Source of the DNA: Thraustochytrium sp. TN22
Lineage: Eukaryota; Sar; Bigyra; Thraustochytrida; Thraustochytriidae
Length of the DNA: 64,000 nt
Assembly (NCBI GenBank): GCA_013306675.1
Contig: JABLUY010000075.1
Coordinates: 1 to 64,000, forward strand
Direction of reading: 5' to 3'
In this document: positions 713 to 64,000 of the stretch, piece by piece
Layout of the letters: every line of letters begins with the position of its first letter
How positions within the stretch are numbered: position 1 is the first letter of the stretch
The notes under the pieces: model-generated
Databases searched by the model: none
What the model was told of the DNA's origin: nothing
Seen by the model: only the letters and a program-made list of their open reading frames with translations
Made by a program: the position numbers and the translations under genes

Positions 713-2134
713 ACGCAGCGTCTGCGTCAGTGGCTCGCGTGCCGCCGCGCTAGTCAATTGTGATCCCTTGGATCCTTCTTGCCGAGTCGTTCGAAACTAC
801 CTGCTCGCCATATACATTCTTACATTGCACGATGCACGCGGCTTATAGCCTCCTGCAGTCACGGCAGCTCGTGGCAACTCGTGTTTTTGTGAGCGGCGAC
901 CTGTGCGATCGCGGAGGTGGCTCCTTGTTCGGTGCGTTGCTTGCAACTTTGAAAACGCGCTTGGCGCGTGCTTCGTTGCCGAGCCGCTTTGGACTCACAC
1001 ACCTCAGAGTCGGGCTCTGTCCGATGGGTCCGCTTGTGGCAGAAGCAGACACTGCAGTCATCAACTAGCTGCAGTGCAAGGGCCCCTGGCAAGAGCTCGT
1101 CAAGAAGAGTCGGCGTCTGTCTCGAAGTGCATGCACCTACCCGGTGGTGACTGTGTGAAGGTGCCCAGCGTCGGCAGAGGCGCCTCCGGCAGCGCTTACC
1201 TCACTCTCAGGCAAGCCCCTTGAGATCCAACAAAGGCAGGGAACTTACGCTTCGTCTTCTCCATTTCACTTGCCAAGCCAGCTATCCGTCGGCTTGCTTC
1301 TCCAACGCTACTCTTACACATGGCCATCTTTTGGCCCTCCCTCGAACTTGAAAGTTTCCTTTTCCCTTGTTCGCTTCGACTGGCCCGCCGGCTCGGACGG
1401 CATCAAAACTTAGTCGGCGCTCCCTCGCTCGCACCCGCCGCTGGCGGCCCAGGGCGTGCGATGCAGTGCAGGCGTCTGGCAGCTGCTGCTACGTGGCAGC
1501 GGGCCGCCAGCACTGGAAATTTGCGCCATCACGTCATTTCGGCGCGGCCCGTGGCCCCGTAGCGGCGTGGCGGCGTGGCGGCGTGGCCGCCCGCCCTGCC
1601 ACTGCTGCGACTTGCGCTGGTGGCTGTGACTGGTGAGGCCTGGCTGGCTGCACTGCACTTTAGTCTGAGCACCGGCAGCTAGCTAGCTAGCTAGGCCTTA
1701 AGCTAGCTAGAGAGAATGACTCCCGCCCGGCGGGAAGGTCATGACCGGGCTCGGTGCACAGTGGCGGTGATCGGCGGCGCAGGGGTCCAAGTAACAGTCG
1801 CCAGTCCAGAGAGAGGACTCACGACTCTGCGCGTTGGCGCAGGTTCTGCCAGTGCTTGCTCGGCTGTCTGTGCTGGCTAGCTAGCCGCGGCCGCCGGCCT
1901 GCCGGTCACCTGGTGGCGGCTACTACACAGCGGCGGGCAGTTGGCAGGCCAGTTCGCTGGGGAAGTGGGGAGGGCCGGCCTTCGCGCACTTGGTTGTGAG
2001 GGTTGCCGGCTTGCTCGCCCCCCCCCTGCTTCCGTGCTTGCTTCCTTGGCCAGGCACGGCGGGTGCGACCGCGCGTGCGCGGCGGGCAGCGACTCTGCAA
2101 AGCACGAGCGCTGCGCGGCGCTGCGCGGCGCAGG
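713..2134. other. Intergenic stretch upstream of the sulfotransferase gene
   Basis: No frame here looks like a conserved protein. It contains an AGCT/CTAG tetranucleotide run around 1678-1710, a motif that recurs between genes in this window, and GC-rich sequence just before the ATG at 2135. Short open frames on both strands look like composition effects. Confidence 0.6.
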
Positions 2135-3529
2135 ATGGCTGCGGGCGAGCGGCGGCGACGGCAGCGGCCACTCGCGCGGCTGACCCTGGTCGGCCTCGTG
2201 GCCTGCGTCTTTGTGGCGCTGCCGCTCGCGCTCAGACAGGCCGCGCCGGGAGCACCGGGTGCTGCTGCTCTTGATCGACTCCGTGGCGAGGTGGTGCCGG
2301 AGGAGGCGACGGCGACCTTCGTGACGACGACAAGCACGACCGCAGAGACTAGGACGACAGCTGCGCTGCCGGCGCCGTCAGACGCCCGGCACAAGGGCCA
2401 GTCTGGGTCAAGATGGGCGCTGTTCGAGCCCTTCACACAGCACATCGAGGCACAGTCCGAGGAACTGGCCTGCAAGACGTCCATCCTGGAGCTGGCCGCT
2501 GAGCTCAAGACGGAGCTGCACGATAGGGCCCTCCAGCTGCCAGTGGTGATTGGTGGCATTGGCGACTCCGGCACACGGTCCATGGTGGACTTCCTGGAGG
2601 CCTTCAAGGTCTCGTTCGGCAAGCGAACCTACTCACGTGATTCCGTGGCCTGGATGGCGTCGTACGAGCTGCCGTCGTGTCAGACGCCGGGCGTCATGGA
2701 GTCCAAGGATGCCTCTGGCATCTACACTCTCATGCTCCAGGAGCACAGCGCCTTTGGCGTGCACTACGACGAGCGGTCCATCCATGCCAAGCACCGATGG
2801 TTCTCGGGCATCCAGCTGCTGCTGCGCATCTTGGTGGAGCAGCTGCGCTTTAGCGAGGCGGACCCAGACGCAGCCTTTGTGGCGGTCAAGCAGCCACGCT
2901 CGACGCTCTTCCTGCCCATGCTCAAGGCGCTTTTTGGCACACAGTTGCGGTACATCCACGTACTACGCGACCCGCGCGACCTGGCCGGCGGCACCTTTGT
3001 CAAGTTCTTCCAGGACATTTGCGCACTATTTTACGAGACGGAGCTCGATCTCTCGCAGTGCAAGGGCGGCCCGCGGAACCGCCTCGAGTTCGACGCGCGA
3101 TACAACTTCGAGGCGGTGCAGTGGCTCGTAGAGAACCTTTCGAGCGAGCAGTTCCTCGTCGTGCGCATCGAGGACCTTGTGGACGAGGGCAACGTAATCT
3201 GCGCGGAGCGCATCCTTGACTTTTTGCACCAGGACCACCCGGACTGGGTCACGCCGCGTGCGACGCTCGAGGCGCAGGCCGCCGTCTTTGCGGAGCACAG
3301 CGGCTCCTTTGCCGGCCGTAAGTTCGCCTCTGCAGAGCGCGAGGCTATGAACAAGGGCGTACTCAAGCGGGCCAAGGTCCGCTACTCCATTCGCCAGCTC
3401 GGCTACAACGTTCCGTCTGAGAACGACCTCTCAGCCCTCTGGCCTACGGACGGCTCCTGTGGGCAGGATATCCCAATCACACCTCTATGCTTACTCGTAT
3501 CCGCCTACCACGCGGGGGTCCCTCGGTGA
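2135..3529 (+). CDS. Membrane-anchored sulfotransferase, 3' end replaced by a mobile-element insertion
   Basis: The predicted product is a PAPS-dependent sulfotransferase of the Golgi type, expected to sulfate a secreted or surface glycan or protein; the substrate is unknown. The ATG at 2135 is chosen because it is followed by a basic segment and a single hydrophobic helix (LTLVGLVACVFVALPLAL, residues about 16-33), a type II signal anchor. The 5'-phosphosulfate loop is seen as IGGIGDSGTRS (about residues 138-148) and the 3'-phosphate segment as VLRDPRDLAGG (about 274-284). The frame runs into the mobile array at 3468, so its last 20 or so residues are element-encoded, ending at 3529. The displaced original end is at 8154-8220. 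The catalytic core is upstream of the insertion, so the protein may still fold; whether it is functional is unknown. Confidence 0.75.
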   Translation: MAAGERRRRQRPLARLTLVGLVACVFVALPLALRQAAPGAPGAAALDRLRGEVVPEEATATFVTTTSTTAETRTTAALPAPSDARHKGQSGSRWALFEPFTQHIEAQSEELACKTSILELAAELKTELHDRALQLPVVIGGIGDSGTRSMVDFLEAFKVSFGKRTYSRDSVAWMASYELPSCQTPGVMESKDASGIYTLMLQEHSAFGVHYDERSIHAKHRWFSGIQLLLRILVEQLRFSEADPDAAFVAVKQPRSTLFLPMLKALFGTQLRYIHVLRDPRDLAGGTFVKFFQDICALFYETELDLSQCKGGPRNRLEFDARYNFEAVQWLVENLSSEQFLVVRIEDLVDEGNVICAERILDFLHQDHPDWVTPRATLEAQAAVFAEHSGSFAGRKFASAEREAMNKGVLKRAKVRYSIRQLGYNVPSENDLSALWPTDGSCGQDIPITPLCLLVSAYHAGVPR

Positions 3530-4138
3530 CGCCCGGCACAGGGGGCACTAAAGCGTATTAAGAGGGTACTTTACTCCCGATTTGCTCCAAAAAAGTGGCC
3601 TAGAGTCTGGCGAAGTTAGTTCCGCATTCGATCAAAAACGCAGCGATGGGGCCGAGCTTGAAGAGGCCCACTCGAAGCGACCCAAGGCTCCTGCCCCCTA
3701 TTCATTTTGGCCGAAGGCGTGGTGGTTAGGATGAGATGAGCTCGGCAGTTCGCCCAGAGCGGCTTTGGGGGGAGCTCGCGCGCGACTTCGTCGCGGAGCG
3801 CGCTGGAGCCGCAGGCGCTGCGGCGCGCGGCTGCAGGCGGCCCTGGCGGGTGCCTTGTGCCTGCTCTCAGCTCGCACGCCCCTGCCGCAGCGCTTGGACG
3901 TGGAGTCGGGCCCGCACTGCGACATCATGGCATCGGCGAGGCCTAACCACCGCGTGGAGGACGACAGCGACAGCGACAGCGACAGCGAGTTCGTGCCCCT
4001 GGACAAGCGGGACACAGGGGACGAAGACGCAGAAGGAGAGGAGCTTGGCGACGAGGAGGCTCGTGCTGAGGCCGCTGCGCAGCAAGACTTCGAAGACATA
4101 CTTGCGTTGGTCGACGAACCGACGCGTGGTGCGAGTGC

Positions 4139-4570
4139 ATGTTCGAGGTCGGCCTCATTCAGCACAAGACCGTTCCGGGGCTCGCAGTCTCGCCGGATGG
4201 AGTCGCTCGCGTCCGGCTTCCAGGCGCGGAGTGCGACGCATCGTCAGTACTATGCAGCGTCGAGATCAAGACGCGCGTCGCGCCTGGAGGCGCGGTAGAC
4301 GCACGTATCGTGAGCACCCAGATGAACACGTGGGGGACGAGACTTGGTGGAAGGCCATACCTGCCGAGCACCGCGCGCAAGTCTTGCACCAAGCTGTGGT
4401 CCTCCAAATCGATCACGTGCTCTACGTTGCTGCCAGCACGAGTTCGTGTTTGTACGCCTGCCTCGTTGAAGTGCCTCCGGACGCCCGGCTCGCCATGGAG
4501 CGCGCTCTGAAACCGTGGGCGGACAAGCTCACGACATGGGCGCACCAGAGCATCGACAGCGGGTGCGCCG
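4139..4570 (+). pseudogene. YqaJ-like PD-(D/E)XK nuclease coding segment within copy 1
   Basis: Frame 2 from 4139 reads FEVGLIQHKTVPGLAVSPDG and later SVEIKTR, which fits the G-x-SPDG ... E-x-K signature of the lambda-exonuclease/YqaJ nuclease family. Frame 1 from about 4340 reads WWKAIPAEHRAQVLHQAVVL, resembling the later helix of that fold (QVLHQ). The two parts lie in different frames in all four copies. The sequence does not show whether this reflects splicing, frameshifting or decay that predates amplification. Matching segments lie at 6435-6866, 60349-60780 and, on the minus strand, about 63216-63647. A role in DNA end processing is inference from the family. Confidence 0.5.
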
Positions 4571-4642
4571 CCCAAGCCACCTGCCATCTTCGGCGAGGAG
4601 GAGGGGGCGGTGCTGAGCTCGCACTTCCGGCTGTGGCGCGCC

Positions 4643-5602
4643 ATGCGCAAGCTTGTCGCTCTGAAGGGGCCCATGCGGCCCGTGCATGTCATCAAGTGCT
4701 TACCGCAGGAGCTATACAACGTCGCAAAGGGCGGCGTCGACGGAAGCACACAGTACGTGGAGCAGATCACCAACACGCAGTGCATGAATCTGAGCTGCGA
4801 CCAGAACATCGCGTTGCGCACGTACAAGCAGCTCGTTGTCAACGCCATCGTGGTCTACCGCTACTTACAGGCTGCGAGGAAGAGCAACCTCGAAGACAGC
4901 GACGGGCTAAAGGCCCTCCGCGACAAGGTGAACCGCTCTGAAGCGCTCAGCACTGTCTCGTTCCGCCTCACTGTCGACATGGTCCGTCACGTCTACAGGA
5001 GCAGGCAGCTCGATACGGCGCAGGTGGAGTTCAACATGCAGCCAAGCATGCCCAAGCCCACTGGGCTCACCAGGGAAGCGGCGAGGGACCTCGTGACCGC
5101 CGGTAAGCGCAAGCGAACCCCCGAGTTGCAGAAGTTCTTCAACCACGGCCAAGCCCGCGACATCCGCCTCGATGCCGCACTGCAACATGACTCAGAGGCA
5201 GCGGGAAAGGCATCCTTCAACGCCAACAACAAGAGGATTCCCGCCAAGCGGCTCTGCGTCATCTGCGGCAAGCAAACGCACCGTCGTTGCACCATCTGCG
5301 GTGTGCCTCTGCACGTGTTCATGAGAAAGAATGAACGCACAACCTGCTTTTCCAAGTGGCACACGCGCGTGCGCGTCGAGCCTCACGAAGGCTTCAAGAA
5401 GCGCAAGACAAACGTCAACGGAACACCTTCGCCCATTTGCCTCGATCATGTCGATTCGAGCAGCGCCAGTGCCTCGTCCGGTACCCCTACAGCGCAGAGC
5501 AGGAACGACCACGTAGCCCAAGCCAGCTACACCGACACCCCATCAAGCCATAGTTCAAGATCCTCTCGCAGCAGCCTCAGCACGAGTCCATCGTGCCCTT
5601 GA
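4643..5602 (+). CDS. piggyBac-type transposase C-terminal segment, copy 1
   Basis: The segment reads LYNVAKGGVDGSTQ near its start; piggyBac transposases carry their third catalytic Asp in a YN-x-x-KGGVD context, followed by a helix like NAIVVYRYL, also present here. Further on is a zinc-ribbon pattern, C-x2-C-x7-C-x2-C-x4-H ... C-x4-H (CVICGKQTHRRCTICG to CFSKWHT), typical of the piggyBac cysteine-rich domain that binds terminal repeats. A Ser-rich tail ends at TGA 5600-5602. The frame is open upstream of this ATG to about 4511 without another Met, so the true start could lie earlier or be reached by splicing. The first and second catalytic Asp regions are not present upstream. Confidence 0.65.
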   Translation: MRKLVALKGPMRPVHVIKCLPQELYNVAKGGVDGSTQYVEQITNTQCMNLSCDQNIALRTYKQLVVNAIVVYRYLQAARKSNLEDSDGLKALRDKVNRSEALSTVSFRLTVDMVRHVYRSRQLDTAQVEFNMQPSMPKPTGLTREAARDLVTAGKRKRTPELQKFFNHGQARDIRLDAALQHDSEAAGKASFNANNKRIPAKRLCVICGKQTHRRCTICGVPLHVFMRKNERTTCFSKWHTRVRVEPHEGFKKRKTNVNGTPSPICLDHVDSSSASASSGTPTAQSRNDHVAQASYTDTPSSHSSRSSRSSLSTSPSCP

Positions 5603-5767
5603 TGCAGCCCAAGTTGGCCTCAGCATCCGCACAGGCCAGTCGGAAGTGACCAACACTTTACGCTTCCATACAAACCCAGTAGTTGAAAGTTCCAAAAATG
5701 ATTAGAATCATGATAGCAACAGGTCAGTCGAGCGCAAGCAGGAGAGCCGATTTACTAGGGATAATAT

Positions 5768-8059
5768 CCCAATCACACCTCTATGCTTACTCGTATCCGC
5801 CTACCACGCGGGGGTCCCTCGGTGACGCCCGGCACAGGGGGCACTAAAGCGTATTAAGAGGGTACTTTACTCCCGATTTGCTCCAAAAAAGTGGCCTAGA
5901 GTCTGGCGAAGTTAGTTCCGCATTCGATCAAAAACGCAGCGATGGGGCCGAGCTTGAAGAGGCCCACTCGAAGCGACCCAAGGCTCCTGCCCCCTATTCA
6001 TTTTGGCCGAAGGCGTGGTGGTTAGGATGAGATGAGCTCGGCAGTTCGCCCAGAGCGGCTTTGGGGGGAGCTCGCGCGCGACTTCGTCGCGGAGCGCGCT
6101 GGAGCCGCAGGCGCTGCGGCGCGCGGCTGCAGGCGGCCCTGGCGGGTGCCTTGTGCCTGCTCTCAGCTCGCACGCCCCTGCCGCAGCGCTTGGACGTGGA
6201 GTCGGGCCCGCACTGCGACATCATGGCATCGGCGAGGCCTAACCACCGCGTGGAGGACGACAGCGACAGCGACAGCGACAGCGAGTTCGTGCCCCTGGAC
6301 AAGCGGGACACAGGGGACGAAGACGAAGAAGGAGAGGAGCTTGGCGACGAGGATGCTCGTGCTGAGGCCGCTGCGCAGCAAGACTTCGAAGACATACTTG
6401 CGTTGGTCGACGAACCGACGCGTGGTGCGAGTGCATGTTCGAGGTCGGCCTCATTCAGCACAAGACCGTTCCGGGGCTCGCAGTCTCGCCGGATGGAGTC
6501 GCTCGCGTCCGGCTTCCAGGCGCGGAGTGCGACGCATCGTCAGTACTATGCAGCGTCGAGATCAAGACGCGCGTCGCGCCTGGAGGCGCGGTAGACGCAC
6601 GTATCGTGAGCACCCAGATGAACACGTGGGGGACGAGACTTGGTGGAAGGCCATACCTGCCGAGCACCGCGCGCAAGTCTTGCACCAAGCTGTGGTCCTC
6701 CAAATCGATCACGTGCTCTACGTTGCTGCCAGCACGAGTTCGTGTTTGTACGCCTGCCTCGTTGAAGTGCCTCCGGACGCCCGGCTCGCCATGGAGCGCG
6801 CTCTGAAACCGTGGGCGGACAAGCTCACGACATGGGCGCACCAGAGCATCGACAGCGGGTGCGCCGCCCAAGCCACCTGCCATCTTCGGCGAGGAGGAGG
6901 GGGCGGTGCTGAGCTCGCACTTCCGGCTGTGGCGCGCCATGCGCAAGCTTGTCGCTCTGAAGGGGCCCATGCGGCCCGTGCATGTCATCAAGTGCTTACC
7001 GCAGGAGCTATACAACGTCGCAAAGGGCGGCGTCGACGGAAGCACACAGTACGTGGAGCAGATCACCAACACGCAGTGCATGAATCTGAGCTGCGACCAG
7101 AACATCGCGTTGCGCACGTACAAGCAGCTCGTTGTCAACGCCATCGTGGTCTACCGCTACTTACAGGCTGCGAGGAAGAGCAACCTCGAAGACAGCGACG
7201 GGCTAAAGGCCCTCCGCGACAAGGTGAACCGCTCTGAAGCGCTCAGCACTGTCTCGTTCCGCCTCACTGTCGACATGGTCCGTCACGTCTACAGGAGCAG
7301 GCAGCTCGATACGGCGCAGGTGGAGTTCAACATGCAGCCAAGCATGCCCAAGCCCACTGGGCTCACCAGGGAAGCGGCGAGGGACCTCGTGACCGCCGGT
7401 AAGCGCAAGCGAACCCCCGAGTTGCAGAAGTTCTTCAACCACGGCCAAGCCCGCGACATCCGCCTCGATGCCGCACTGCAACATGACTCAGAGGCAGCGG
7501 GAAAGGCATCCTTCAACGCCAACAACAAGAGGATTCCCGCCAAGCGGCTCTGCGTCATCTGCGGCAAGCAAACGCACCGTCGTTGCACCATCTGCGGTGT
7601 GCCTCTGCACGTGTTCATGAGAAAGAATGAACGCACAACCTGCTTTTCCAAGTGGCACACGCGCGTGCGCGTCGAGCCTCACGAAGGCTTCAAGAAGCGC
7701 AAGACAAACGTCAACGGAACACCTTCGCCCATTTGCCTCGATCATGTCGATTCGAGCAGCGCCAGTGCCTCGTCCGGTACCCCTACAGCGCAGAGCAGGA
7801 ACGACCACGTAGCCCAAGCCAGCTACACCGACACCCCATCAAGCCATAGTTCAAGATCCTCTCGCAGCAGCCTCAGCACGAGTCCATCGTGCCCTTGATG
7901 CAGCCCAAGTTGGCCTCAGCATCCGCACAGGCCAGTCGGAAGTGACCAACACTTTACGCTTCCATACAAACCCAGTAGTTGAAAGTTCCAAAAATGATTA
8001 GAATCATGATAGCAACAGGTCAGTCGAGCGCAAGCAGGAGAGCCGATTTACTAGGGATA
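5768..8059 (+). mobile_element. 2,292-bp element, copy 2
   Basis: This is a direct tandem copy, offset exactly 2,296 bp from copy 1 (2,292 plus ATAT). Ends and coding segments are as in copy 1. The 5' junction is CTAGGGATA-ATAT-CCCAATC. Confidence 0.88.
6939..7898 (+). CDS. piggyBac-type transposase C-terminal segment, copy 2
   Basis: The product is identical to that of copy 1: GGVD motif, zinc ribbon and Ser-rich tail. The nuclease-like segment precedes it at 6435-6866. Confidence 0.65.
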   Translation: MRKLVALKGPMRPVHVIKCLPQELYNVAKGGVDGSTQYVEQITNTQCMNLSCDQNIALRTYKQLVVNAIVVYRYLQAARKSNLEDSDGLKALRDKVNRSEALSTVSFRLTVDMVRHVYRSRQLDTAQVEFNMQPSMPKPTGLTREAARDLVTAGKRKRTPELQKFFNHGQARDIRLDAALQHDSEAAGKASFNANNKRIPAKRLCVICGKQTHRRCTICGVPLHVFMRKNERTTCFSKWHTRVRVEPHEGFKKRKTNVNGTPSPICLDHVDSSSASASSGTPTAQSRNDHVAQASYTDTPSSHSSRSSRSSLSTSPSCP

Positions 8060-8063
8060 ATAT

Positions 8064-8104
8064 GGCTATCCTGATTAAACTCCGTCTAGGGCGATGGGAT
8101 TGGG
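8064..8104 (-). repeat. 41-bp unit, first left copy
   Basis: The unit lies between ATAT at 8060-8063 and ATAT at 8105-8108. On the minus strand it begins CCCAATCCCATCGCC and ends AGGATAGCC. Its CCCAATC start matches the start of the 2,292-bp element. Confidence 0.9.
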
Positions 8105-8108
8105 ATAT

Positions 8109-8149
8109 GGCTATCCTGATTAAACTCCGTCTAGGGCGATGGGATTGGG
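8109..8149 (-). repeat. 41-bp unit, second left copy
   Basis: This is an identical direct repeat of the preceding unit, followed by ATAT at 8150-8153, the right boundary of the array against host sequence. Confidence 0.9.
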
Positions 8150-8153
8150 ATAT

Positions 8154-8220
8154 GCCCGTCGTTGCAGGCCGCGAGCTGTCTGAGCCGCTCGCGCTTGGGG
8201 TTCTTCAGGGTCATAGCTGA
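8154..8220 (+). pseudogene. Displaced 3' end of the sulfotransferase gene
   Basis: If the array and one ATAT are removed, the sulfotransferase frame continues in phase from 3471 into 8154 and runs to TGA at 8218-8220, adding MPVVAGRELSEPLALGVLQG and two more residues. The intact protein would have been about 467 residues. The tail carries no recognised motif, so the evidence is the shared frame and the matching ATAT, not homology. Confidence 0.6.
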
Positions 8221-32558: not shown

Positions 32559-35500
32559 CTAGATAGAGGCCCTTGGTGAGTCCTGCGACTCCGGTGACGA
32601 GCACGGGGACTCGATGATGGCGCTCCGATGATGACAGGCCCTGGGCTTGCGTAGGGCTCGCGGCCTTGACGTCTCGGCGGCATCCTGTGCAAGTGCGCTG
32701 GCCGAGTCAGAGCTGTCCGGGCCAAAGCTGTCCGAGTCTGCACGATTCGAATCTGGTGCCGGCAACGACCCCAGCTTGGCCTTGTTGTTGCTTCGCCAGT
32801 TCGACACGAACCGAAGGAGCTTCTCCTTGCTCGGCGCATCAGCCGGCAGCTCCTTAGCCCCCGGGTCGGTTGCCGAGGCTGTGCCGAAGTGCTCGACCAT
32901 CGCATCCCAGACCACGGCGGGCGTAGCCTCTCCGTCCGCCATCATCATCTTGACGGCGAAGTCTTTGAAAACGCCCTTCACCTGCGAAGCGCCGCGTCTG
33001 GCATTCTGTGCAAGTTCGCTGGCCGAGTCAGAGCTGTCCGGGCCAAAGCTGTCCGAGTCTGCACGATTCGAATCTGGTGCCGGCAACGGCCCCAGCTTGG
33101 CCTTGTTGTTGCTTCGCCAGTTCGACACGAACCGAAGGAGCTTCTCCTTGCTCGGCGCATCAGCCGGCAGCTCCTTAGCCCCCGGGTCGGTTGCGGAGGC
33201 TGTGCCGAAGTGCCCGACCATCGCATCCCAGACCACGGCGGGCGTAGCCGCTCCGTCCGCCATCATCATCCTGACGGCGAAGTCTTTGAAAACGCCCTTC
33301 ACCTGCGAAGCGCCGCAACCACGGGTTCCAGGCAGAGCGCCCAGGCGATTCTTGTTACTCTTCTTGGCCATCTGGAATCTCGTCCTGAAAACAGACAAGA
33401 TGTCCGGGACGAGCGCAAGCGCCGTTCCCTGAAAGTGCTCCGTGGCCTTCGCGAGCGCCTCGCTGGGCATGCAGTCCATGTCTTGCCTGAGCAGGTCCTC
33501 GATGAAGTCGATGTATTCGCTTGGGAAGACGTCCTTTAGCTCCCGCGCCCGAGCGACGTAGTCAGGCGCCGGAAGACCCTTCTCACGCGCGGTGTTGCGC
33601 CAGCCGAGGAACCTGTTGATCTCTCCCTTGACGTCCTTCTCCGAGAGCATGTTCATGTCGTGCGGAAAGCTCGTGCGGAGGCGCTCCAGCATCGTCGGGG
33701 CGGAGACTTTAATCCCGGTCCCCTGTTCCGCAGCAAACATCTGTGCAAGAGCGACTCGGTAGTGGCCAGCAAGCGTCGAACCGGTGCGATAGCCCACCTT
33801 GGGCCGCCGCGCAAAGCCTGGAGCTTCGAAGGAAGCGCTCGCATCGAAGTTAGCTGCGTCTTCATACTCGCGCATTTCGCCGTTGCCGTCACGGATCTCA
33901 ATGCCAGCTTTGTTCAGTACCGCCTCCACGTTTCTAACGGCGAAGGCAACCAGGTCGCGGCGGCGAGGTGCCTCGTGCGTGGCTCCAGGGCCGACATGTC
34001 CGGGGCCAGTTGAACTACCGCTCTTGCTGCCGGTTTCATCGTCGGATTCGCTGCCTGAGCTGTCGTTCGAGTCGCCGTCGTCGTCGTCGTCTCCATCGCA
34101 GGAGTCTGCTTGTAGCTCCACACTCTCCACATGGCGAGCGAGGGACGTTGCCTGCAGACCGTTTACTGACTGCTGCGCGCTGTTCATGCGCTCCCTCCTG
34201 ATGCGCTCCTCGTGCCTGAGGAGGGATGGTACGTCTGCACCAGTCGCAGCGGCGCCAAAACATGTAAGGCCGGCGCGGGCAAAAAGAGGCTCTGCGCTGG
34301 AAGAGCTTACTATCGGGCTGTTCTCGTCGTCATCCTCACTGTCGTCGTTGTTGCCGCCGTTGTTGCCAGGAGTGTCGTCGGCGTTGATGTCGCGCACGTC
34401 GCCGCGCGTGAGCTTGACGGTCTGTGTGCGCCCGTCCAGCTCGAAGACAACGGCCGTGCCGATTTTCGAGTACTCCCAGGTTTGCAGCTCGAAGACTCCG
34501 GCCCATGAGAAGGGATCTTCGGGGTTCAAAGAAGCTCTGCCCGCATGCTCGCCATCAGGCATTGCGCAGAACTCGATTTCGTTCTGTCGCGATACGCGCC
34601 CGACCGCAGCAAGGAGGTTTGCGTAGCGCTCCATTCTGCGGCCCAGCATCGCACGATCGATGTCGACGAGCTGCACGAAGGTGTTGTCGATCCCGCGCGC
34701 GGATGTGAGCGCTCGAAAGAGCTCTCTGGGCGCCGTGACGTTGTGGCCTTCCGCCACGTACTTGTTCACGTGACGCATGGCGTTCGCGAAATGCGCGTCG
34801 ATGGAGCACTTGCCATCGCACGACTCGGTGTGGAGGTAGCGGCGGATGTTGACGCCGGTGGCCAGGGAGATGTACGGCATCGAAGCAATGAGCGTGCTCG
34901 CGTGGTAGCACTTTGCGTTGTCACTCTGCATCGTGACCGACTCCACCTGATCGAAAGCCGGGTAAACCTTGAGCTGAAGGAGGAAAAGCTCGAGGAGCGC
35001 GGCGACTGTGATGCCATTTTGCAGGTTGTCCGTCTCGAGAATCTGATCCAGATAGACCAGCTCTGGCTCTTCGTTGACGCGCTTCTTGACGGGATCGTAG
35101 ACGAAGAACATCACCATGAAGCCGTGCCATGAGATGCCACGCTTGCCGAAGTGCTCGACCGATTTCTGGCGGTAGTAGATCGGCTGGAACTTCATCTTGA
35201 AGTCCATCACCACGATGACCTCGCGCGGCTTCTCCCACTTGTTCTCCTCCGCGTTTCTCCTCATCTCCCCCTCGATGTGGCTGATGCGAAGCCGCTGGTT
35301 GGCGACACGTGCACACTGGCCCCGCCAGAGGCGAGTCAGCTTCTCACAGCGCCTGACTGCGCTGAGAGCGTGCTCCGCGTCAAACTCGTCGCTGTAGCGA
35401 ATGTCGGCGGCCTGCACGGACTTGCGCAGCAGGTCGAAGAAGTATGGCACGAATTTGCAGCCGTTGCAGGCCATCGTCATCTTCTTCTGCGTGCCTGGAT

Positions 35501-59632: not shown

Positions 59633-59636
59633 ATAT

Positions 59637-59677
59637 CCCAATCCCATCGCCCTAGACGGAGTTTAATCAGGATAGCC
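59637..59677 (+). repeat. 41-bp unit, left of copy 3
   Basis: It begins CCCAATCCCATCGCC and ends AGGATAGCC. It is the inverse orientation of the unit at 61978-62018. Confidence 0.9.
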
Positions 59678-59681
59678 ATAT

Positions 59682-61973
59682 CCCAATCACACCTCTATGC
59701 TTACTCGTATCCGCCTACCACGCGGGGGTCCCTCGGTGACGCCCGGCACAGGGGGCACTAAAGCGTATTAAGAGGGTACTTTACTCCCGATTTGCTCCAA
59801 AAAAGTGGCCTAGAGTCTGGCGAAGTTAGTTCCGCATTCGATCAAAAACGCAGCGATGGGGCCGAGCTTGAAGAGGCCCACTCGAAGCGACCCAAGGCTC
59901 CTGCCCCCTATTCATTTTGGCCGAAGGCGTGGTGGTTAGGATGAGATGAGCTCGGCAGTTCGCCCAGAGCGGCTTTGGGGGGAGCTCGCGCGCGACTTCG
60001 TCGCGGAGCGCGCTGGAGCCGCAGGCGCTGCGGCGCGCGGCTGCAGGCGGCCCTGGCGGGTGCCTTGTGCCTGCTCTCAGCTCGCACGCCCCTGCCGCAG
60101 CGCTTGGACGTGGAGTCGGGCCCGCACTGCGACATCATGGCATCGGCGAGGCCTAACCACCGCGTGGAGGACGACAGCGACAGCGACAGCGACAGCGAGT
60201 TCGTGCCCCTGGACAAGCGGGACACAGGGGACGAAGACGAAGAAGGAGAGGAGCTTGGCGACGAGGATGCTCGTGCTGAGGCCGCTGCGCAGCAAGACTT
60301 CGAAGACATACTTGCGTTGGTCGACGAACCGACGCGTGGTGCGAGTGCATGTTCGAGGTCGGCCTCATTCAGCACAAGACCGTTCCGGGGCTCGCAGTCT
60401 CGCCGGATGGAGTCGCTCGCGTCCGGCTTCCAGGCGCGGAGTGCGACGCATCGTCAGTACTATGCAGCGTCGAGATCAAGACGCGCGTCGCGCCTGGAGG
60501 CGCGGTAGACGCACGTATCGTGAGCACCCAGATGAACACGTGGGGGACGAGACTTGGTGGAAGGCCATACCTGCCGAGCACCGCGCGCAAGTCTTGCACC
60601 AAGCTGTGGTCCTCCAAATCGATCACGTGCTCTACGTTGCTGCCAGCACGAGTTCGTGTTTGTACGCCTGCCTCGTTGAAGTGCCTCCGGACGCCCGGCT
60701 CGCCATGGAGCGCGCTCTGAAACCGTGGGCGGACAAGCTCACGACATGGGCGCACCAGAGCATCGACAGCGGGTGCGCCGCCCAAGCCACCTGCCATCTT
60801 CGGCGAGGAGGAGGGGGCGGTGCTGAGCTCGCACTTCCGGCTGTGGCGCGCCATGCGCAAGCTTGTCGCTCTGAAGGGGCCCATGCGGCCCGTGCATGTC
60901 ATCAAGTGCTTACCGCAGGAGCTATACAACGTCGCAAAGGGCGGCGTCGACGGAAGCACACAGTACGTGGAGCAGATCACCAACACGCAGTGCATGAATC
61001 TGAGCTGCGACCAGAACATCGCGTTGCGCACGTACAAGCAGCTCGTTGTCAACGCCATCGTGGTCTACCGCTACTTACAGGCTGCGAGGAAGAGCAACCT
61101 CGAAGACAGCGACGGGCTAAAGGCCCTCCGCGACAAGGTGAACCGCTCTGAAGCGCTCAGCACTGTCTCGTTCCGCCTCACTGTCGACATGGTCCGTCAC
61201 GTCTACAGGAGCAGGCAGCTCGATACGGCGCAGGTGGAGTTCAACATGCAGCCAAGCATGCCCAAGCCCACTGGGCTCACCAGGGAAGCGGCGAGGGACC
61301 TCGTGACCGCCGGTAAGCGCAAGCGAACCCCCGAGTTGCAGAAGTTCTTCAACCACGGCCAAGCCCGCGACATCCGCCTCGATGCCGCACTGCAACATGA
61401 CTCAGAGGCAGCGGGAAAGGCATCCTTCAACGCCAACAACAAGAGGATTCCCGCCAAGCGGCTCTGCGTCATCTGCGGCAAGCAAACGCACCGTCGTTGC
61501 ACCATCTGCGGTGTGCCTCTGCACGTGTTCATGAGAAAGAATGAACGCACAACCTGCTTTTCCAAGTGGCACACGCGCGTGCGCGTCGAGCCTCACGAAG
61601 GCTTCAAGAAGCGCAAGACAAACGTCAACGGAACACCTTCGCCCATTTGCCTCGATCATGTCGATTCGAGCAGCGCCAGTGCCTCGTCCGGTACCCCTAC
61701 AGCGCAGAGCAGGAACGACCACGTAGCCCAAGCCAGCTACACCGACACCCCATCAAGCCATAGTTCAAGATCCTCTCGCAGCAGCCTCAGCACGAGTCCA
61801 TCGTGCCCTTGATGCAGCCCAAGTTGGCCTCAGCATCCGCACAGGCCAGTCGGAAGTGACCAACACTTTACGCTTCCATACAAACCCAGTAGTTGAAAGT
61901 TCCAAAAATGATTAGAATCATGATAGCAACAGGTCAGTCGAGCGCAAGCAGGAGAGCCGATTTACTAGGGATA
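59682..61973 (+). mobile_element. 2,292-bp element, copy 3
   Basis: Full length, with the same ends as copies 1 and 2, and matches copy 2 at the two sites where copy 1 differs. It is flanked by ATAT at 59678-59681 and 61974-61977. Confidence 0.88.
60853..61812 (+). CDS. piggyBac-type transposase C-terminal segment, copy 3
   Basis: Same product as copies 1 and 2: GGVD motif, zinc ribbon, Ser-rich tail. The nuclease-like segment is at 60349-60780. Confidence 0.65.
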   Translation: MRKLVALKGPMRPVHVIKCLPQELYNVAKGGVDGSTQYVEQITNTQCMNLSCDQNIALRTYKQLVVNAIVVYRYLQAARKSNLEDSDGLKALRDKVNRSEALSTVSFRLTVDMVRHVYRSRQLDTAQVEFNMQPSMPKPTGLTREAARDLVTAGKRKRTPELQKFFNHGQARDIRLDAALQHDSEAAGKASFNANNKRIPAKRLCVICGKQTHRRCTICGVPLHVFMRKNERTTCFSKWHTRVRVEPHEGFKKRKTNVNGTPSPICLDHVDSSSASASSGTPTAQSRNDHVAQASYTDTPSSHSSRSSRSSLSTSPSCP

Positions 61974-61977
61974 ATAT

Positions 61978-62018
61978 GGCTATCCTGATTAAACTCCGTC
62001 TAGGGCGATGGGATTGGG
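61978..62018 (-). repeat. 41-bp unit between copies 3 and 4
   Basis: Plus-strand ends GGCTATCC and GATTGGG. With its two flanking ATATs it forms the 49-bp spacer between the inverted copies 3 and 4. Confidence 0.9.
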
Positions 62019-62022
62019 ATAT

Positions 62023-64000
62023 TATCCCTAGTAAATCGGCTCTCCTGCTTGCGCTCGACTGACCTGTTGCTATCATGATTCTAATCATTTTTGGAACTTT
62101 CAACTACTGGGTTTGTATGGAAGCGTAAAGTGTTGGTCACTTCCGACTGGCCTGTGCGGATGCTGAGGCCAACTTGGGCTGCATCAAGGGCACGATGGAC
62201 TCGTGCTGAGGCTGCTGCGAGAGGATCTTGAACTATGGCTTGATGGGGTGTCGGTGTAGCTGGCTTGGGCTACGTGGTCGTTCCTGCTCTGCGCTGTAGG
62301 GGTACCGGACGAGGCACTGGCGCTGCTCGAATCGACATGATCGAGGCAAATGGGCGAAGGTGTTCCGTTGACGTTTGTCTTGCGCTTCTTGAAGCCTTCG
62401 TGAGGCTCGACGCGCACGCGCGTGTGCCACTTGGAAAAGCAGGTTGTGCGTTCATTCTTTCTCATGAACACGTGCAGAGGCACACCGCAGATGGTGCAAC
62501 GACGGTGCGTTTGCTTGCCGCAGATGACGCAGAGCCGCTTGGCGGGAATCCTCTTGTTGTTGGCGTTGAAGGATGCCTTTCCCGCTGCCTCTGAGTCATG
62601 TTGCAGTGCGGCATCGAGGCGGATGTCGCGGGCTTGGCCGTGGTTGAAGAACTTCTGCAACTCGGGGGTTCGCTTGCGCTTACCGGCGGTCACGAGGTCC
62701 CTCGCCGCTTCCCTGGTGAGCCCAGTGGGCTTGGGCATGCTTGGCTGCATGTTGAACTCCACCTGCGCCGTATCGAGCTGCCTGCTCCTGTAGACGTGAC
62801 GGACCATGTCGACAGTGAGGCGGAACGAGACAGTGCTGAGCGCTTCAGAGCGGTTCACCTTGTCGCGGAGGGCCTTTAGCCCGTCGCTGTCTTCGAGGTT
62901 GCTCTTCCTCGCAGCCTGTAAGTAGCGGTAGACCACGATGGCGTTGACAACGAGCTGCTTGTACGTGCGCAACGCGATGTTCTGGTCGCAGCTCAGATTC
63001 ATGCACTGCGTGTTGGTGATCTGCTCCACGTACTGTGTGCTTCCGTCGACGCCGCCCTTTGCGACGTTGTATAGCTCCTGCGGTAAGCACTTGATGACAT
63101 GCACGGGCCGCATGGGCCCCTTCAGAGCGACAAGCTTGCGCATGGCGCGCCACAGCCGGAAGTGCGAGCTCAGCACCGCCCCCTCCTCCTCGCCGAAGAT
63201 GGCAGGTGGCTTGGGCGGCGCACCCGCTGTCGATGCTCTGGTGCGCCCATGTCGTGAGCTTGTCCGCCCACGGTTTCAGAGCGCGCTCCATGGCGAGCCG
63301 GGCGTCCGGAGGCACTTCAACGAGGCAGGCGTACAAACACGAACTCGTGCTGGCAGCAACGTAGAGCACGTGATCGATTTGGAGGACCACAGCTTGGTGC
63401 AAGACTTGCGCGCGGTGCTCGGCAGGTATGGCCTTCCACCAAGTCTCGTCCCCCACGTGTTCATCTGGGTGCTCACGATACGTGCGTCTACCGCGCCTCC
63501 AGGCGCGACGCGCGTCTTGATCTCGACGCTGCATAGTACTGACGATGCGTCGCACTCCGCGCCTGGCAGCCGGACGCGAGCGCCTCCATCCGGCGAGACT
63601 GCGAGCCCCGGACCGGTCTTGTGCTGAATGAGGCCGACCTCGAACATGCACTCGCACCACGCGTCGGTTCGTCGACCAACGCAAGTATGTCTTCGATGTC
63701 TTGCTGCGCAGCGGCCTCAGCACGAGCATCCTCGTCGCCAAGCTCCTCTCCTTCTTCGTCTTCGTCCCCTGTGTCCCGCTTGTCCAGGGGCACGAACTCG
63801 CTGTCGCTGTCGCTGTCGCTGTCGTCCTCCACGCGGTGGTTAGGCCTCGCCGATGCCATGATGTCGCAGTGCGGGCCCGACTCCACGTCCAAGCGCTGCG
63901 GCAGGGGCGTGCGAGCTGAGAGCAGGCACAAGGCACCCGCCAGGGCCGCCTGCAGCCGCGCGCCGCAGCGCCTGCGGCTCCAGCGCGCTCCGCGACGAAG
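62023..64000 (-). mobile_element. 2,292-bp element, copy 4, inverted, cut by window end
   Basis: This copy is in reverse orientation, tail-to-tail with copy 3; 1,978 of 2,292 bp are in the window. It carries a few more differences from the other copies in its 5' half (63560-63700 region), so it is slightly more diverged. Confidence 0.86.
62184..63143 (-). CDS. piggyBac-type transposase C-terminal segment, copy 4
   Basis: The protein sequence is the same as in copies 1-3 over this segment. The GGVD motif and zinc ribbon are intact. Confidence 0.65.
   Translation of the reverse strand: MRKLVALKGPMRPVHVIKCLPQELYNVAKGGVDGSTQYVEQITNTQCMNLSCDQNIALRTYKQLVVNAIVVYRYLQAARKSNLEDSDGLKALRDKVNRSEALSTVSFRLTVDMVRHVYRSRQLDTAQVEFNMQPSMPKPTGLTREAARDLVTAGKRKRTPELQKFFNHGQARDIRLDAALQHDSEAAGKASFNANNKRIPAKRLCVICGKQTHRRCTICGVPLHVFMRKNERTTCFSKWHTRVRVEPHEGFKKRKTNVNGTPSPICLDHVDSSSASASSGTPTAQSRNDHVAQASYTDTPSSHSSRSSRSSLSTSPSCP

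Follow-up and report, generated by a model that had tools for sequence, protein, structure and literature searches.

The window analysed here, positions 1 to 64,000 of contig JABLUY010000075.1 of Thraustochytrium sp. TN22 (assembly GCA_013306675.1), carries at 3468-8153 an array of two 2,292-bp modules, called E, and two 41-bp modules, called U. The preferred reading of the array is that a copy of a young transposon sits inside another copy of the same element, of which E would be the body and U the right end. The contig is C426 of the 37.9-Mb, 453-contig assembly, and loci elsewhere in the genome are written as contig:position.

The array and the gene it interrupts

On the forward strand the array opens with an ATAT (3468-3471), read as the target copy to the left of the outer insertion. 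It is followed by the E of the outer copy (3472-5763, + strand) and by an ATAT (5764-5767) with two roles: it is the outer copy's own internal ATAT, and it flanks the inner insertion on the left as a target copy. Then comes the inner copy, complete with 2,337 bp (5768-8104, +), which consists of E (5768-8059), a single internal ATAT (8060-8063) and U (8064-8104). The right target copy of the inner insertion (ATAT, 8105-8108) leads to the U of the outer copy (8109-8149, +), the partner of the E at 3472-5763 in the nesting parse, and the right target copy of the outer insertion (ATAT, 8150-8153) closes the array. A preliminary description of the window had given this composition, and its limits for the array, 3468-8153, are exact. 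It had also noticed an 11-bp inverted repeat at the array ends, which is present but does not come from two different module types as supposed: it is the CCCAATC/GATTGGG terminal repeat of one transposon together with the ATAT target. The two E copies are identical at all but 2 of their 2,292 positions. The 41-mer of U occurs four times in the window, against none in 100 shuffles, and two of these four belong to a second nested array with a different arrangement, U- E+ U+ E- (59633-64000, modules from 59637), which runs beyond the window end to about C426:64318.

The first array sits near the 3' end of a host open reading frame (ORF; 2003-3467, +) with a weak match to Sulfotransfer_3 under the cut-off. 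If the flanks are joined at one ATAT, the frame goes on past the array (8154-8220, +) for 22 residues to a stop, so that the product has 511 residues, versus 508 with the foreign tail. This restoration of the frame bears on a possibility already named in the preliminary description, an assembly artefact, which would here come from collapsed repeats. At least one left end does lie at a contig start (C413:26-51), and the assembly is in 453 pieces. Against an artefact stand, besides the restored frame, 30 arrays with different host flanks on both sides and the two substitutions that distinguish the E copies of the window array, and we regard this explanation as extremely improbable.

E and U as probable parts of one element

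The layout of the element is ATAT-CCCAATC...GGGATA-ATAT-GGCTATCC...GATTGGG-ATAT, with a 7-bp terminal inverted repeat, CCCAATC/GATTGGG. Within its 2,337 bp there is a single ATAT, which marks the border between E and U and is separated from the right end by 41 bp. Genome-wide, a left-end search found 120 left ends and a 41-mer search 132 U; 100 of each were listed with positions, perfect matches first and in contig order. At least 58 matches were obtained in a DNA search with E (40 of 101 candidates scored), 57 of the 58 spanning at least 2,279 of 2,296 bases. A protein search with the 330-aa C-terminal frame of E (121 of 135 candidates scored) gave at least 123, namely 116 near-identical ones (98-100%) and seven relatives. 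By far the commonest arrangement is a simple E-U pair, of which 48 (25 E+U+ and 23 U-E-) lie on contigs within the U list, and therefore E and U are taken as parts of one element. Among the parsed loci, each E right end read leads through ATAT to another module.

The preliminary description had regarded E and U as two independent module types. If U were a mini-element of its own, and E another, the two assembling freely at ATAT, it would be easy to understand why U outnumber left ends (132 to 120), why EUU and EUUU arrays exist, why three U matches (C70, C218, C359) have no E match nearby, and why four listed left ends (C7, C85, C346, C413) are without a match to the E C-terminus. Such independence is hard to reconcile with the one fixed arrangement of the 48 simple pairs, with the lack, by eye, of any terminal inverted repeat in U itself, and with the bracket grammar found in 14 of 18 tested arrays, as described below. 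We consider it very improbable, and U is better understood as the right end of the same transposon.

One E copy, at C111:399702-404384, stops matching after E position 1846, and the distance to its U is about 2.35 kb greater than normal; the locus contains a frame of 1,199 aa and possibly has another mobile element inserted.

Nested copies and their grammar

How could such modules come to stand in rows? A copy inserting at the internal ATAT of another copy, with duplication of the ATAT, would give E[EU]U, as in the window array, or U-[E+U+]E-, as in the second array of the window. Insertion at this site thus predicts balanced brackets, in which E+ is closed by U+ and U- by E-. There are 23 clusters with at least two E, and 18 were tested, several of them parsed from coordinates alone with incomplete junction letters; C79, C394, C423, C426:119750 and C431 stayed outside, their U or junction letters being incomplete or their units spaced apart. 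Perfectly balanced words were found in 14 of the 18, where random order and orientation would give 1.1 (P about 8e-16). The preliminary description was therefore right to think of repeated insertion into the same 4-bp target, which takes the form of nesting at the internal ATAT, while the free order of modules that it expected does not fit these 14 arrays. Twelve arrays contain 14 nested events, seven in the same and seven in the inverted orientation relative to the enclosing copy. The greatest complexity is seen at C177:21663, which reads E+[U-[U-E-]E-]U+, and at C233:62278, which reads E+[U-E-][U-E-]U+ and where one inner copy of the two may have entered a flanking ATAT and not the internal one.

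The arrays might also have grown from 45-bp and 2.3-kb repeats by slippage in replication or by unequal crossing-over. This would account for the EUU and EUUU forms, and slippage has been proposed for tandem arrays of coral CMITE elements (PMC2872659). Half of the nested events (7 of 14) are inverted, which is not a product of tandem duplication. In C81, moreover, the U of the inner element, a 4.1-kb parent copy described below, has one base that is absent from the adjacent outer, extra U; therefore, the extra U is no slippage copy of the parent's U. Construction of the arrays in this way seems highly unlikely to us. If nesting by insertion is preferred, EUU forms would arise when the left end of an inner copy pairs with the right end of the outer one, and C18, which carries a diverged E right end, and C81 can be read as an EUU unit struck at its U|U ATAT.

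Preference for the internal ATAT

The density of ATAT in 149,644 bases of host sequence is 0.347 per kb, which amounts to about 13,200 sites in the whole genome. If the internal sites number 60 to 120, an internal ATAT would be expected to receive 0.4 to 0.9% of the insertions. About 14 of 120 were seen there (P = 6e-16 for 60 sites to 5e-12 for 120 sites), so that nested strikes are some 13-26 times more frequent than host ATAT density predicts. An extended target motif was looked for in the flanks of 21 arrays with ATAT on both sides, and none was clear beyond ATAT itself; therefore, sequence preference alone is not a ready explanation for the enrichment. By eye, the internal ATAT has GGATA on one side and TATCC on the other, with a CCCTAG block beyond each. 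Probably, it lies in the right-end region bound by the transposase, and tethering of transposase at this place would make the site hot for further copies in either orientation. Autointegration of piggyBac into its own TTAA sites is known (PMC3952818).

A putative transposase lineage and a 4.1-kb parent

E codes no complete transposase. In the outer copy of the window array, a probable remnant of an N-terminal acidic region (MASARPNHRVEDDSDSDSDSEF...) lies at 3927-4135 (+; approximate limits, set by eye) and ends near the presumed joint of an internal deletion. It is followed by the remnant of a RecE/YqaJ-like nuclease segment at 4139-4580 (+), in two frames and without 19 bp found in the parent copy at C81, and by the 330-aa C-terminal frame at 4610-5602 (+), in which a GGVD motif and a Cys-rich CxxC...CxxC...C...H region are seen by eye. 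The nearest readable relative, on C239 (L092), has one frame of 1,213 aa, which holds the DDE-like Asp motifs IDDELV and TADRGYS (by eye), then a RecE-like segment, apparently a built-in nuclease, then the match to the E C-terminus. The segment matches PHROG 434, a RecE-like exonuclease, with E=1.4e-6 and contains SPDG...VEIK...Q motifs by eye. The C239 protein falls just under the cut-off of PF01609 (DDE_Tnp_1; 22.0 bits, cut-off 23, E=1.6e-4) and far under that of the IS4 model NF033591 of NCBIfam (23.5 bits, cut-off 152, E=2.7e-5). Pfam YqaJ gave no match to this lineage; the sole match to it (PF09588) over the cut-off in the genome is a 713-aa frame at C78:69347.

A genome search with the C239 protein found 998-aa frames at C81, C109 and C394, and a fourth at C33 with one TAG, in which the ADRGYS motif is present by eye. 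These four frames coincide with four of the 116 E-like loci. The C81 copy, of about 4,127 bp, has a left end set at ATAT and identical to that of E at 90 of 94 positions, and on the right it shares 98% identity with E. Judged from these likenesses, E looks like a deletion derivative of such a 4.1-kb parent: it would be the parent minus about 1.77 kb, as estimated from the lengths, and minus 19 bp more inside the nuclease part. For its movement the element would then depend, in trans, on the transposase lineage to which the parent belongs.

The Cys region of the C-terminal frame gave only zf-RING_16 at E=0.29 and, over 28 residues, PHROG 1321 at 4.1e-5, a family of unknown function. In a solved-structure search the best E-value of the frame was 0.68 (retroviral nucleocapsids and a TnsB), and the same kind of search with P0001 gave no match. 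The AlphaFold model of the frame (mean pLDDT 35) is too poor for use. Among viral contigs, too, no relative of the C239 protein turned up in a search.

More proteins related to the transposase or nuclease, 31-74% identical, occur at C232:24470, C111:602614, C48:81432, C151:41522 and C11:136038. They are mostly long open frames of up to 3,580 aa (that on C48 has two TAG), and they make up a diverse family in the genome. Three single genes with PF13843, L061 (C398:74214), L062 (C16:7745) and L063 (C76:33366), were considered as a source of transposase and rejected: blastn against E gave nothing below E=0.26, tblastx gave weak matches for L062 alone (best 4.8e-4), on the strand opposite to the E coding strand and taken as compositional, and in each of the three the second catalytic Asp is apparently gone, by eye. 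The three look like domesticated piggyBac-derived genes. Weak matches to the piggyBac zinc finger PF13842, just under the cut-off, were seen at C340:8446 and C436:51299, one of them in a 1,404-aa frame. Apart from these, the window itself contains at 32679-33316 a 321-bp repeat in two tandem copies, 97% matching.

Target tetramers

Integration at ATAT, and less often at YTAT, would leave a 4-bp target copy on each side. Module-module junctions, counted by exact end motifs in the genome loci fetched, are ATAT in 81 of 86 cases, ATAG in two, CTAT in one and ATATTATAT in two; the count misses junctions formed by diverged ends, such as the ATAG between E and U in C18. The earlier statement that every junction is ATAT thus holds for the window array, and for most but not all junctions in other places. 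Both outer tetramers were read in 30 arrays, of which 21 are ATAT/ATAT, two CTAT/CTAT, one TTAT/TTAT and six unequal (C33 was dropped, its far end being off the predicted coordinate, and C11:271019 was read as CTAT/CTAT with a 1-nt offset). The 19 simple E-U pairs among them comprise 15 ATAT/ATAT, one TTAT/TTAT and three unequal ones. The preliminary description had itself named other tetramers and imprecise ends as signs that would speak against it. Both were found to some extent: nine of the 30 arrays have a non-ATAT outer tetramer (CTAT, TTAT or their complements), and joins are irregular by coordinates in three arrays, C61, C79 and C144. At single outer edges ATAT was read in 67 of 82 cases, and the other 15 are CTAT, TTAT, ATAG or ATAA; some few of the edges counted border on a diverged module or on the end of a segment and not on host sequence. 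TTAA was found at none of the 82. At C79:15967-25645, three consecutive E+U+ units are separated by 9-bp spacers (ATATTATAT where read) and an inverted unit stands 309 bp off, which reads as clustered insertions in a short AT-rich host stretch.

In the six unequal arrays (C11:196400, C18, C35, C37, C177:21663 and C294) the two sides differ by one outer base. Side-by-side insertions could confuse the pairing of tetramers in C18, C37 and C177:21663; C11:196400, C35 and C294 are simple pairs. Later point mutation is an unlikely source of the difference because the copies are almost identical. Excised or opened ends of piggyBac keep a 4-nt overhang (PMC7351741). In cut-and-paste of this kind the overhang from the donor would pair with the target, and the donor tetramer would end up at the new site. 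Such inheritance could explain unequal flanking tetramers, as a suggestion only, and the tetramers offer a possible sequence test of it.

One-base differences between the flanks also resemble the "coupling sequences" known from site-specific recombination. Could E and U then be circles that join at a 4-bp crossover, ATAT, by a tyrosine recombinase or a Crypton-like enzyme? The near-constant tetramer, the precise joins and the six unequal arrays of 30 would suit such a mechanism. The 7-bp terminal inverted repeats would not, nor would arrays that are nested and not only concatenated, with seven same and seven inverted events, and the coding lineage appears DDE-like from the weak profile matches of C239 to PF01609 and the IS4 model, both under the cut-off. 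Recombination of this kind is, in our estimate, very improbable.

Weighing the transposon reading

Taken together, it is very probable that E plus U is one non-autonomous, ATAT-targeting transposon, mobilised in trans, whose own internal ATAT is hot and gives rise to nested arrays. Several observations weigh against this. Four of the 18 tested arrays are unbalanced, C18, C81 and C177:92931 with one extra U each and C61 irregularly, and five more two-E clusters are too incomplete for the test. Extra U are also found in arrays with a single E, as EUU or UUE at C255, C349 and C111:12321 and as EUUU at C189. Unequal tetramers, in six of 30 arrays and three of 19 simple pairs, are unexpected if target duplication is simple gap filling. 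In the C81 parent the C-terminal GGVD/Cys-rich part is out of frame with the nuclease part, and a functional transposase in this assembly is putative. Finally, autointegration of Sleeping Beauty seldom strikes its own terminal repeats, with a single such event given in PMC3952818, and from this rarity one would not expect a site so close to an end, at 41 bp, to be hot.

A more detailed version, which we put forward tentatively and think somewhat less likely to hold than to fail, would make the element a landing pad for its own kind. The internal ATAT, kept in the right end where the transposase binds, would draw in further copies, the arrays would grow as nested brackets and throw off composite EUU forms, the DDE transposase would carry a RecE/YqaJ-type nuclease inserted between its second and third catalytic Asp, and joining without DNA synthesis would leave donor tetramers behind.

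Autointegration and nesting are mostly regarded as accidents. Here, one internal site is struck far above expectation, and the arrays make an unusually clean natural record of self-targeting: the copies are near-identical, the internal target is one, and the syntax can be read as an insertion history.

Comparison with known systems

The behaviour of the element is piggyBac-like. It shares with the piggyBac superfamily a 4-bp palindromic A/T target and CCC tips, and by eye it has a Cys-rich C-terminal pattern and a GGVD motif that resemble those of the superfamily. In piggyBac the target is TTAA, and here it is ATAT or YTAT; the tip is CC[C/T]T in the definition given in PMC2872659, and here CCCAATC, although AmiPB4, a piggyBac-like element starting with CCCA, is listed there as an exception. 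A further difference from piggyBac is the nuclease-like segment that in this lineage separates the second Asp motif from GGVD. Neither PF13843 (DDE_Tnp_1_7) nor PF13842 (zf-Tnp_2) matched E or C239. We do not file the element under piggyBac, because its target and tip differ and profile matches are below the cut-off or absent.

Elements of the ISL2EU type, which make 2-bp target copies, belong to the PHIS superfamily and are eukaryotic transposons tied to a YqaJ nuclease, as this lineage may be. According to PMC4482050, their YqaJ has an ORF of its own next to that of a DDE/HTH/THAP transposase, whereas in C239 the DDE-like part, the nuclease-like part and the C-terminal match are in one frame. 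No publication that links YqaJ to a piggyBac-like transposase was found in the open-access literature, and a nuclease placed inside a transposase would, if confirmed, be an architecture without a match found there. For piggyBac in thraustochytrids, nested self-insertion, YqaJ fusions and ATAT as a target, the same literature gave no precedents beyond those cited here.

As for the arrays, the known element that comes closest in having a target tetramer inside it is the coral CMITE-IN, a piggyBac-like miniature inverted-repeat transposable element (MITE) whose internal TTAA took in a related element, and which is also a precedent for modular build-up (PMC2872659). Unlike the present arrays, CMITE-IN is one prototype case with 23-bp direct repeats; the account of it in PMC2872659 describes no genome-wide bracket grammar and puts tandem arrays down to slippage. 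Repeated targeting has likewise produced multimeric arrays of SaTar, non-autonomous Mutator-like elements (MULEs) of guayule and rice. According to the abstract of PMC5907723, SaTar multimers are uniformly non-nested and microsatellite-associated, whereas the thraustochytrid element shows 14 nested events in 12 arrays.

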